Positions 8,744 through 56,082 of a DNA stretch of 64,000 bases are shown piece after piece. The notes beneath the pieces were generated by a model, which saw only the letters and a list, made by a program, of their open reading frames with translations, ran no database searches and was not told the origin of the DNA. A program made the translations under genes and the position numbers. Where the stretch lies: the NCBI GenBank assembly GCA_017449525.1, contig JAFTFL010000018.1, positions 173,526-237,525 of the forward strand. The letters are read 5' to 3'. This DNA is from Bacteroidales bacterium (GTDB lineage Bacteria > Bacteroidota > Bacteroidia > Bacteroidales > P3). Positions within the stretch are counted from its first letter, which is position 1. Each line of letters begins with the position of its first letter.

Positions 8744-8965
8744 ATCCTCGGTTGTTACAATTGGTTTCCATAACGCAGATAGCCCACCTATTCGTACATC
8801 GAGCCTAAAAAATAACGACTTTGGCATGTACTCCCTGCCTCGGGCTCACCTCTGTCCCTCGTCGTCAGCTCAAGGCCTGCGGTGCAGACGTGGCAAGTCT
8901 CCTTCGCCAGCCGCATCCGCCCGCTTTGTGCACACCTGTCCCCTCCCACAGGTGCCTCTCCCAAC

Positions 8966-9080
8966 TGCCGTACGACACCTCCATTAAATGCCGTACAGCA
9001 TCGTGCCCTATGTCGTACAGCATAGGCTGCTATGCTGTACGGCATGAGGCCTTCTGCCGTACGGCACCCGAACCGATTTC
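8966..9080. repeat. 22-bp-period palindrome array A (5 units)
   Basis: Five copies of a GYCGTACRGC-type palindrome have their central GTAC at 8970, 8993, 9015, 9037 and 9059, so spacings are 23, 22, 22 and 22 bp. The 14-mer ATGCCGTACAGCAT occurs at 8988-9001 and, inverted, at 9032-9045. Sequence between palindromes varies. The array lies between two divergent genes, upstream of the promoter at 9240. It belongs to a family with the arrays at about 28.4, 37.6 and 55.3 kb. Confidence 0.85.
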
Positions 9081-9239
9081 ACAATAATATCATTATCAGT
9101 ACTATTACACAAATATACCACACCCTCTTCTCCTCCACCCACCCTTCGGTAGGGCTAAAGCATGGCCACACGGCACAACTCCTATCCCCACATGAAGGCC
9201 TGTATACGGGCAGATGCAGTGTATATAATAAAATTTCCG

Positions 9240-20309: not shown

Positions 20310-20363
20310 ACCTCATTCTATTATCACCACAATATTACACCTTATATATTATAGTATGCACAC

Positions 20364-20451
20364 CACTTTCGTACTCTGTCCACTCCACGTTCGAACTCTG
20401 CCCACATCACTTTTAGACACTGTCCACTCCACCCTCGAGCGTTGCCCACAT
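20364..20451. repeat. 44-bp tandem duplication made of four 22-bp subunits
   Basis: Copies 20364-20407 and 20408-20451 align without gaps. Both contain CTGTCCACTCCAC and GCCCACATCA-type blocks in the same positions. Each 44-mer splits into two related 22-bp halves, one with TGTCCACTCC and one with TGCCCACATC. The period equals that of the palindrome arrays elsewhere in the window, but the GTAC core appears only once (20371) and is otherwise replaced by GAAC, AGAC and GAGC. Confidence 0.85.
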
Positions 20452-28240: not shown

Positions 28241-28387
28241 TTGGTCAATCTCTTTCGTGCACCTGTCGGCCAATCATCCCCACTGCCAATCCTCCATCCG
28301 TCCTACGCGCCGACATCGCCCGGACTTAACTCATCGTAACGCACATTCCTCGTATTTCGTATGCCGCGTGCTGTGCATTTTGCGAAA

Positions 28388-28560
28388 TGACGTACGGCAT
28401 ACCCCCTTACGTCGTACGGAAGTCGCGCTCTCGCCGTACGACAGCATCTCCTATGCCGTACAGCATGCGGTTCTCGAAACAAGATGATTTACAGCCAGCC
28501 ACATCGCACCCCACTCCGATGCCGTACAGCATTGAGCCCAATGTCGTTGAGCAGTGGAGC
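28388..28560. repeat. 22-bp-period palindrome array B
   Basis: The central GTAC of palindromes lies at 28392, 28414, 28436, 28458 and 28524; the last interval is exactly three periods. A degenerate unit (ATGTCGTTGAGCA) continues the register at 28546. The 14-mer ATGCCGTACAGCAT occurs at 28453-28466 and 28519-28532, and is shared with array A. The array lies between the 3' end of tRNA-Ser and the start of hisS. No open frame explains it. Confidence 0.85.
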
Positions 28561-28853: not shown

Positions 28854-28943
<90 letters not shown>

Positions 28944-37382: not shown

Positions 37383-37413
37383 TTGCGCATTCGGGCGAAA
37401 GTTCGTACCTTTG
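37383..37413 (+). promoter_or_regulatory. Promoter (TTG-N20-TACCTTTG) far upstream of rseP
   Basis: TTG at 37383-37385 is followed after exactly 20 bp by TACCTTTG (37406-37413), an excellent match to the Bacteroidota -33/-7 promoter. It points toward rseP, about 420 bp away, so palindrome array C would be transcribed as part of the leader. Confidence 0.65.
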
Positions 37414-37505: not shown

Positions 37506-37700
37506 GCCTCCCGTGCCGTACGGCACGGGAGGCTGTTGCCGTGCAGCACAGAGCACCACCCTACATTATCCACCACTATATCAGCACAGAAGCCCTCCAA
37601 TACGCCGTACGGCATCCACCCTCCTACCGTACGCCTTCTCGCCTGCAGTCGTACGACGTAGGTCCCCACGCCGTACGGCCGCCGAGCCGATGCCCCACAC
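37506..37700. repeat. 22-bp-period palindrome array C with 28-bp perfect palindrome
   Basis: Central GTAC positions are 37518, 37607, 37629, 37651 and 37673, with a GTGC variant at 37541. Intervals are 23, 66 (three periods), 22, 22 and 22 bp. A degenerate unit (ATGCCCCACACGGC) holds the register at about 37694. The first unit is extended into a perfect 28-bp palindrome at 37506-37533. The array lies between a predicted promoter and the rseP start. Confidence 0.87.
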
Positions 37701-54678: not shown

Positions 54679-55198
54679 TCAGAGACTCCACACGGTAGGT
54701 ATTGACACGCGCATACCGCGCTGCATCAGGTGTGGTGCTGCGGCGAGGGGCACGGACTTAGGCAGCCGTCTCGTCAAGGGCTCGCTGACCACCAGCTCGC
54801 AGCGCAAGCCCGTGTGCATCCGCTCGGTCAGCCGGCACCGCAGCCCAATGTGGAGTTCCACGGGCACCCCCCACGCGCCTCACCGCATAATCCTGCCCAC
54901 TGTATTCAAAATCGTTGCGCATGTAGAGCAATCCCACATCGCATCCTTCGCCGAGGCTCATCCAGTCGGTCAGTTGCTTATGGAGTAGCACCGCGAAGGA
55001 GCGGGCATTGAGCGAAACAAATTCTTCACCCACATCGCTGCGCACCGAGGTGTAGCCCACTTCGGGCGAGGCACCCATGTAGTGCACCATGTCGGCCTTG
55101 CTCCGTTTGGTCTTAAAGAGGAGGTTCTCGCGCGTAGGGACATCGATTCGGTAGGCTGCTGCGCACCCTCCAATACGGCCACATCGTGTTCGTCCCAC
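54679..55198 (-). pseudogene. Frameshifted outer-membrane-barrel-like gene fragment
   Basis: One minus-strand frame (from about 55198 to 54870) reads like a membrane barrel: S-K-A-D-M-V-H-Y-M-G-A-S-P-E-V-G-Y-T-S-V, D-V-G-L-L-Y-M-R-N-D-F-E-Y-S-G-Q-D-Y. It then turns into low-quality sequence, while a second frame takes over at about 54867 with V-E-L-H-I-G-L-R-C-R-L and ends M-R-V-S-I-P-T-V-W-S-L at 54679. A single frameshift near 54868 would join them. No signal peptide is seen at the 5' end. This fits the 3' part of a broken outer-membrane protein gene; a sequencing error cannot be excluded. Confidence 0.5.
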
Positions 55199-55280
55199 AA
55201 TCCATTTCCCACCCCTTCAACTACGTCTCATTCCCAAGCCCTTCGCCCACAACCATCTTCCCCTACGCCACAAGGTATGC

Positions 55281-55425
55281 CTGCCGTACGGCTCGGCAGT
55301 CCTTGCCGTTGAGAAACGGTGCGGATGCCGTACGGCAATATTCCTCGATACCGTACTGAACAAATGGCGCTTACGCACGCGCCTATATATACGCCGTAGG
55401 GGACGTAGGGCTCAGCACTACGGCA
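55281..55425. repeat. 22-bp-period palindrome array D
   Basis: Palindrome centres: GTAC 55286, degenerate GTTG 55308, GTAC 55330, GTAC 55353, then degenerate GTAG 55396 and CTAC 55418. Intervals are 22, 22, 23, 43 and 22 bp. The unit at 55324-55338 is ATGCCGTACGGCAAT. The array sits between marC and the broken barrel gene, and its right end merges into the inverted repeat at 55395-55446. Confidence 0.78.
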
Positions 55426-55446
55426 CTGAGCTCTACGTCCCCTACG
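55395..55446 (-). terminator. Long inverted repeat after marC (terminator-like)
   Basis: CGTAGGGGACGTAGGGCTCAG pairs over 21 bp with its near-perfect complement (one mismatch) around a 10-nt loop, 42 bp after the marC stop. There is no T-tract. It may act as a terminator or be part of the repeat array. Confidence 0.6.
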
Positions 55447-55488
55447 ATACTCTATTCAATGAAGTAGCACCTGGAAGTGCTATCTGCG

Positions 55489-56082
55489 CTACTGCACCCC
55501 TTGTATGACAATGGCAATGTTGCTCACAAAGAGCTTCACCGCCATAGCCAGCAGTATGACGCCGAAGAATTTGCGCAGCACATATACAATGTCGCCCCCC
55601 AGGGCCTTGGCCAACTTGTGGAGGTAGCGCAGCACCAGGTAGTCTAAGGCTATATTGAGCAACAGCCCTATCATGATGTTCACCACGTGGTACTCTGCAC
55701 GGAGCGACAGCAAAGCGGTGAGGGCTCCCGGCCCTGCTATCAGAGGGAAAGCTATCGGCACGATGGAGGCTCCCGAACTGGCGCTCTCGTTGCGAATGAT
55801 TTCGCGTCCCAGTATCATTTCCAACGCCAGCACAAACAGTACAAACGCACCAGCCACTGCAAAAGAGGCGATGTCAATGCCAAACAGTCGTAGTACTGCC
55901 TCGCCCGCAAAGAAGAACACCACGAACAGGCCCAAGGCCACCAAGGTGGCCTGCCCAGCGCGTATGGTCTTGCCCTGTTCTTTCATGCCCAAGAAGATGG
56001 GGATGGAACCAGTAATGTCGATTATGGCAAACATCACGAGAAACGAACCGAATATCTCTACCAGGCTTAGGTGTTGCAGCAT
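55489..56082 (-). CDS. MarC family integral membrane protein
   Basis: I start at the ATG at 56082 (M-L-Q-H-L-S-L-V-E-I-F), which gives the usual MarC/NAAT length of 197 residues with six hydrophobic segments. Family marks are F-A-I-I-D-I-T-G-S-I-P-I-F-L, R-x-G-Q-A-T-L and I-V-P-I-A-F-P-L-I-A-G-P-G-A-L-T. The frame stays open upstream to 56727, but that extension is unrelated to MarC (see the fragment at 56230). MarC proteins are of uncertain function; an early link to antibiotic resistance was withdrawn. Confidence 0.9.
   Translation of the reverse strand: MLQHLSLVEIFGSFLVMFAIIDITGSIPIFLGMKEQGKTIRAGQATLVALGLFVVFFFAGEAVLRLFGIDIASFAVAGAFVLFVLALEMILGREIIRNESASSGASIVPIAFPLIAGPGALTALLSLRAEYHVVNIMIGLLLNIALDYLVLRYLHKLAKALGGDIVYVLRKFFGVILLAMAVKLFVSNIAIVIQGVQ

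Follow-up and report, generated by a model that had tools for sequence, protein, structure and literature searches.

Palindrome arrays in phase occupy four spacers of the window, the whole 64-kb stretch of DNA analysed here. Array A (8965..9067, no strand assigned) consists of five palindromes at 8965-8978, 8988-9001, 9010-9023, 9032-9045 and 9054-9067, each repeat unit comprising a 14-bp palindrome, ATGCCGTACGGCAT, and ~8 variable bp, so that the steps between palindromes are 23, 22, 22 and 22 bp. All five near-identical palindromes claimed in an earlier note on this DNA could be located in the sequence, and the centres it assigned to them (8970, 8993, 9015, 9037 and 9059) reproduce the spacing pattern but all lie ~1.5 bp too low. 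The palindromes of array A are contiguous, without the 44-bp gap described below, and the motif TATATTTG on the minus strand (9110-9117) points into the array from ~57 bp, unlike the usual distance of such motifs.

The same palindrome in the same register, previously noticed in three other spacers, is present at 28387-28554 (array B), 37513-37681 (array C) and 55281-55361 (array D), where several copies are degenerate and the register is nevertheless kept. Array B lies on the minus strand and has a block of four palindromes (28387-28466), a gap (28467-28518) containing the IHF-like core ATCATCTTGTTTC (28476..28488, minus strand), and a block of two (28519-28554); a tRNA gene (28857-28943, minus strand) lies upstream of the array and is directed towards it. 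Array C lies on the plus strand, with two palindromes (37513-37526 and 37536-37549) followed by a gap with no clear IHF-like core and by a four-site block (37602-37615, 37624-37637, 37646-37659 and 37668-37681). A promoter-like TACCTTTG (37406..37413, plus strand) faces this array from upstream, at 203 bp from the first site of the four-site block. Array C was not among the units selected by the template search described below. The sites of array D, for which no strand is assigned, are found at 55281-55294, 55303-55316 (degenerate), 55325-55338 and 55348-55361 (degenerate). Within the window, the motif TAnnTTTG, which we take to be a promoter motif of the Bacteroidetes type, was not found at its usual distance from arrays A, B and D, and near array D there is none on either strand within 54900-55600. 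A long near-perfect inverted repeat (CGTAGGGGACGTAGGGCTCAG ... CTGAGCTCTACGTCCCCTACG), possibly a terminator, adjoins array D at 55395-55446.

In total, the window contains 39 matches to the 14-mer (up to 3 mismatches, both strands counted) against 10.9 expected, a number reached by 0 of 100 shuffled windows. The original observation is thus real, and the phenomenon is larger than first described.

Abundance, phasing and genomic position

Genome G000 (2.53 Mb in 26 contigs) contains the core GCCGTACRGC 176 times per strand, as compared with 10 and 9 occurrences of its backwards control, making the palindrome core (ATGCC-GTAC-GGCAT) ~18 times commoner than its control. The 22-bp peak anticipated for the whole genome is present, as 57 of the 62 palindrome pairs that lie 7-37 bp apart among the matches listed have a distance of 22 or 23 bp, four of these 62 being duplicates that lie on further contigs. 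Some contigs share identical array matches, namely C5:122797-122874 with C8:18370-18447, C7:5742 with C14:231750, and C9:10823 with C14:53106, which suggests duplicated segments or assembly redundancy.

The position of the sites was assessed in a 464-kb sample consisting of the window and 20 stretches of 20 kb each, taken at regular intervals from four long contigs, using home-made gene calls. The earlier note had set its reading against palindromes being equally common, and unphased, inside coding sequence; in the sample, site density is 1.29 per kb between genes versus 0.18 in genes. Pairs with an intergenic member fall at 22-23 bp (50 pairs), 44-46 bp (30), 65-68 bp (25), 87-90 bp (27), 109-112 bp (20) and 132-133 bp (15), and up to 150 bp no listed distance of this kind departs by more than 2 bp from a multiple of 22.2 bp. 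Coding sequence contributes just two pairs, with distances of 12 and 55 bp, and neither is in phase. The observation thus withstood both refuting conditions set out in the earlier note.

Phased arrays occupy 22 gaps of the sample, which extrapolates to ~120 per genome, and they are concentrated between divergent genes. Among gaps of at least 500 bp, arrays are held by 14 of 20 divergent, 2 of 26 co-directional and 0 of 7 convergent ones (divergent 14/20 versus others 2/33, Fisher p 1.4e-6), leaving six of the 20 divergent gaps of this size without an array. With the same gene calls, the counts for gaps of at least 30 bp are 15 of 34 divergent, 5 of 176 co-directional and 2 of 31 convergent. 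A template search yielded 39 distinct units, whose gene context is -+ in 24, -- in 8, ++ in 4 and +- in 3, and which show no bias in strand composition (18 against 21). While 32 of 38 scanned flanking proteins match a Pfam family, with T9SS sorting domains among the matches, no function common to the 38 was found, the neighbours being unrelated proteins of metabolism, transport, secretion or processing. The sorting domains, together with the promoter type, point to Bacteroidota.

Composite anatomy and the phased promoter motif

In general, the arrays show a spacing of [22/23]-66/67-[22-22-22] or its mirror image, corresponding to two palindromes, a 44-bp gap and four palindromes. This anatomy was seen in most arrays of a set of 40 stretches fetched around listed pairs and hence selected for arrays. 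Aligning the gaps (37 rows from 36 arrays, omitting 8 of 44 without a clear 66-bp gap, including arrays A and D) reveals a conserved and asymmetric element with A at -41, T at -34 and TCAnSTTGTTGnG at -28 to -16. The majority sequence agrees in part with the IHF consensus, WATCAANNNNTTR, matching it at seven of nine specified positions, one of which is a W that half of all sequences would match by chance. Per-array counts of IHF matches are only slightly above those of the flanks, and the best matches lie at one common offset in 27 of 39 arrays, these 39 having been chosen by a template that scores the gap. The genome has six matches to the HU/IHF family.

The earlier description of a conserved palindrome with varying spacers is borne out by the 39 arrays, in which mean pairwise identity over columns -75 to +29 is 0.63 in palindrome columns and 0.32 outside both the palindromes and the gap element. 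Expressed by element, identity between arrays is 63% in the palindromes, 53% in the gap element and 32% in the remaining columns, which are near random, though slightly above the 25% expected from composition.

In most units, the promoter motif TAnnTTTG (here TTCGTACCTTTGCA) stands upstream and is directed into the array at a nearly fixed distance. It occurs 120-300 bp upstream of the four-site block in 36 of the 39 units, three units having none, and its distance is 200-205 bp in 22 of these 36. The other 14 distances are 168, 190, 190, 192, 214, 218, 224, 224, 225, 234, 246, 256, 269 and 269 bp, 13 of them within 1 bp of 202+11n (binomial p 5e-7). The best period of the distances is 11.1 bp; because this period came from the same data, random sets were run as a control, and 2 of 2000 were as concentrated at any period of 9-13 bp. 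A step of ~11 bp is typical of loops in negatively supercoiled DNA in vivo.

The consensus of the array promoters is shared, less tightly, by 79 ordinary gene promoters of the 464-kb sample. Many neighbouring genes have a TAnnTTTG of their own, the left gene on the other strand and the right gene beyond the array, with spacing that is not fixed. Between promoter and array, the leader has no predicted structure (28 units, mean z -0.05), and its sequence shows little conservation in logos. Two arrays, array B and the one at L139, follow tRNA genes; in the latter, a tRNA-Val gene (L139:1507-1582, minus strand) and a terminator-like hairpin stand between promoter and array.

Distribution among genomes and the wider 22-bp lattice

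Phased pairs were found 67 and 63 times in G000; the core occurs 0-15 times per strand in the 118 other genomes of the genus that were searched, and among 189 other genomes of the family two have a single phased place each. Of 393 genomes of the order and 395 of the phylum, both being samples of larger groups, only G000 has a stricter pattern, and no genome searched in family, order or phylum besides G000 has more than one phased pair. Viral contigs gave 0 matches with two patterns. In Marseilla (L035) and Odoribacteraceae (L076), there is one phased place in the whole genome, and these matches are local because each genome has a single one. The broader scan that gave these two returned at least 106 stretches with matches, of which most among those listed are from high-GC actinobacteria; for example, Streptomyces diastatochromogenes has four GTAC palindromes at 23-bp steps (L016:6358-6427). 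Judged by the genomes of the phylum that were searched, the array family is restricted to one species; it may also occur outside the phylum. In 400 kb of sequence from the four relatives G085, G044, G114 and G048, no comparable palindrome family was found, and the tandem arrays present there are local and differ in period.

A preference for the 22-bp step extends to intergenic tandem repeats of G000 that lack the palindrome. Of 30 intergenic arrays that Tandem Repeats Finder identified in the sample of G000, 19, including two of the palindrome family, have a period of 22, 23, 44, 45, 67 or 132 bp, the periods of the other 11 being 10-52 bp or 233 bp; of 18 coding arrays, one has a lattice period, of 45 bp. 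The 14 gaps with lattice repeats and no palindrome are co-directional in eight cases and convergent in six, and none is divergent. In the four relatives, 29 arrays have periods of 11 (6), 22 (3), 23 (2) and 44 bp (1), with the other 17 at 7 to 27 bp. The 22-bp-step repeats without the palindrome and the periods of the relatives therefore indicate that phasing to the helix may be frequent in intergenic DNA of the genus, the palindrome family belonging to the G000 species.

Several other repeats can be described individually. A second 22-bp array in the window (20355-20447) has CACTCCAC...TCTGCC alternating with CACATCAC...CTGTC in a 44-bp super-period, and the 464-kb sample yielded no second array of this kind. 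Large intergenic minisatellites with unrelated sequences and units of 22, 44 or 67 bp (132 in part of L251) occupy convergent or co-directional gaps of G000 at L255:2375-2864, L257:10075-10389, L251:15908-16242, L258:8005-8207 and L252:14709-14814. In the relative G044, a dispersed element of ~200 bp, likely MITE-like, is present in two copies (L213:17040-17240 and L214:10525-10720) and carries 11-bp direct repeats near TATTTCAACRC. Closely similar repeats of 11 bp, near CTAACTTAAGT or the reverse complement of this sequence, are found at three places in the relative G114 (L217:10985-11028, L220:12053-12086 and L152:3719-3785). Finally, a CRISPR-like array with the repeat GTTGTGAATTGCTTGAAAAGAGGACATTGACACC... 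and a step of ~78 bp lies at L249:7025-8473.

Interpretation and comparison with known systems

The earlier proposal of phased sites for a dimeric protein gains support from conservation, arm symmetry and two-turn spacing, although it missed the composite anatomy, the phased promoter and the bias towards divergent genes. With its two-fold symmetry, symmetric tolerance of changes and helical spacing, the palindrome array has the features of an operator array for a dimeric protein, and the Pfam scans of the 38 flanking proteins linked no cognate DNA-binding protein to it. Beginning with what can be read from the DNA itself, i.e., the sites, their phasing and anatomy, their location and the quantised promoter distances, we somewhat favour a model in which the palindromes would be docking sites for one candidate dimeric DNA-binding protein, with dimers spaced ~22 bp apart along a single face of the helix. 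Where the 44-bp gap is present, as in most arrays, a protein of the IHF/HU type may bend it so that the array folds into a compact complex. The promoter ~202 bp away, if active, would lie on the same helical face and could be locked to the complex through looping or wrapping of the DNA, and the complex may control or block transcription and supercoiling between the neighbours, acting as a local insulator-like node rather than as the operator of one regulon. The main effect is probably local because the units stand mostly between divergent genes with their own promoters and have a leader without conserved sequence or structure. Given a leader that lacks conservation and neighbours of no common function, local insulation or control is the likeliest role; an insulator function is suggested by position and by the lack of any conserved leader or regulon theme. 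Points against the model are the partial IHF match, the three units without the promoter motif, its absence at the usual distance from arrays A, B and D, and the six long divergent gaps that hold no array.

Several other explanations must be weighed against this model. The palindrome could be the stem, with a GUAC loop, of transcribed RNA hairpins belonging to a multi-copy small RNA or a leader. A promoter directed into the array would suit such a transcript, as would the strong predicted folding of the arrays (mean z -3.7, 28 units), which any palindromes would give. However, one-sided changes are equally frequent on both arms; G.T is not favoured over A.C on the transcribed strand as assigned from array anatomy (31 versus 30 at pair 3 and 23 versus 24 at pair 4, 199 sites); and compensatory double changes are rare in these sites, with T-A doubles in few cells only. 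The equal counts and rare double changes therefore point to a palindrome constrained as a two-fold DNA site, and by this pattern of changes the palindromes behave as DNA sites, not as RNA hairpins. A search of 14 sources against Rfam matched two tRNAs and a 5S only, no family falling on the arrays, and six loci searched by E-value returned, besides a tRNA, four matches below threshold, among them mir-960 on an array (L142:1373-1455, minus strand; 32 versus a gathering score of 100 bits) and a DUF805b-like match at L146:1773. Given arm symmetry, an unstructured leader and arrays without an Rfam family, the structured-RNA reading was rejected, and RNA hairpins are hardly credible here. Simple tandem duplication, giving minisatellites with a 22-bp unit, is likely the origin of the non-palindromic arrays, and the preference of other intergenic tandem repeats for units of 22, 44/45 and 67 bp with array-specific sequences speaks for it more widely. 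For the palindrome family it is contradicted by the recurrence of one palindrome at dozens of separate places, the differing 8-bp spacers and the non-repeat gap at a fixed place, making it very improbable.

The main rival holds that the arrays are ordinary operators of one global transcription factor that governs a conventional regulon of adjacent genes. Palindromic operators with cooperative spacing would be expected from it, 24 of the 39 units are upstream of both neighbours, and most right-hand plus-strand genes of those 24 have their own TAnnTTTG beyond the array. Yet the 38 scanned flanking proteins show no common function, and in the -- and +- contexts (11 of 39) the phased promoter has no downstream gene on its strand, which makes a conventional regulon unlikely. 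The units could also be decayed copies of a dispersed, MITE-like mobile element of which only functional motifs are still recognisable. A stereotyped anatomy at dozens of places would fit this, as would the dispersed element with 11-bp repeats in G044 and BrickBuilt of Porphyromonas, described as a MITE with a 23-nt minisatellite (PMC4596501). By contrast, the logos show no conserved ends, the non-motif columns are near random, slightly above expectation (0.32 versus 0.25), and the off-mode promoter distances fall in helical steps, as expected from selection and not from decay. Pairwise BLAST of the 39 units revealed no recent duplication, its 30 longest rows being 67-78% identical over at most 115 bp. 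While an ancient mobile origin of the units is possible but unsupported, decayed copies of such an element are a quite improbable account of the arrays.

If the favoured model of dimer docking, gap bending and promoter looping is correct, a compact, helically locked promoter-array unit, repeated at dozens of places in one genome and found in none of the relatives that were searched, would give bacteria a novel means of organising transcription between genes. More speculatively, and with considerable doubt, the arrays may be a bacterial boundary element on an intergenic lattice of ~11.1 bp per turn, in which species-specific six-site arrays, bent by an IHF/HU protein and locked to a promoter whose leader is not conserved, insulate divergent genes, and unrelated repeats share the 22-bp lattice in non-divergent gaps. 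The arrays would make testable the open question of whether bacteria have sequence-encoded insulators between divergent promoters. Any single array should capture the binding protein, so that a pull-down would be simple, and promoter distances of 168 to 269 bp, nearly all on 11-bp steps, amount to a phase experiment set up by nature, from which helical repeat and looping could be studied in living cells.

The kinship with BrickBuilt considered in the earlier note did not hold. This MITE of Porphyromonas gingivalis is described as having a 23-nt consensus, AGAYCATARTATCCTCTCRTRTG, without spacers, a leader and tail with inverted-repeat ends, and 19 copies in one strain (PMC4596501). Both repeats are intergenic with units of 22-23 bp and occur in the same phylum, but the BrickBuilt consensus is unrelated, the arrays here combine a palindrome with ~8-bp spacers, and the unit logos reveal no terminal conservation beyond promoter and array; consensus, spacer-less layout and inverted-repeat ends thus all fail to fit.

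The nearest analogue is BIME-1 (REP-IHF-REP) of enterobacteria, in which palindromes are described as surrounding an IHF-binding segment; the related description of RIB elements places these at the 3' ends of transcription units (PMC2817692). BIME-1 and the present arrays are dispersed, high-copy intergenic palindromes with an IHF segment, here a putative, IHF-like one, in between, but they differ in position and repeat. Unlike RIB elements with their place at 3' ends, the arrays favour divergent 5' regions, and they consist of another repeat, a short symmetric palindrome at a 22-bp step with a phased promoter. No description of an equivalent element was found in the open-licence PMC literature.

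When compared by layout, two further systems resemble the arrays. In the operator/enhancer of phage Mu, which adjoins a promoter, an IHF bend separates blocks of repressor sites, an arrangement similar to the split site blocks, IHF-like gap and nearby promoter motif seen here; however, it is a phage control region, whereas the arrays are present in dozens of chromosomal copies. Iteron plasmid origins carry direct repeats with ~22-bp spacing and IHF beside the rep gene, and resemble the arrays, with their putative IHF element, in two-turn spacing, IHF and a nearby promoter, but their repeats are direct, while those described here are symmetric palindromes at dozens of chromosomal loci.
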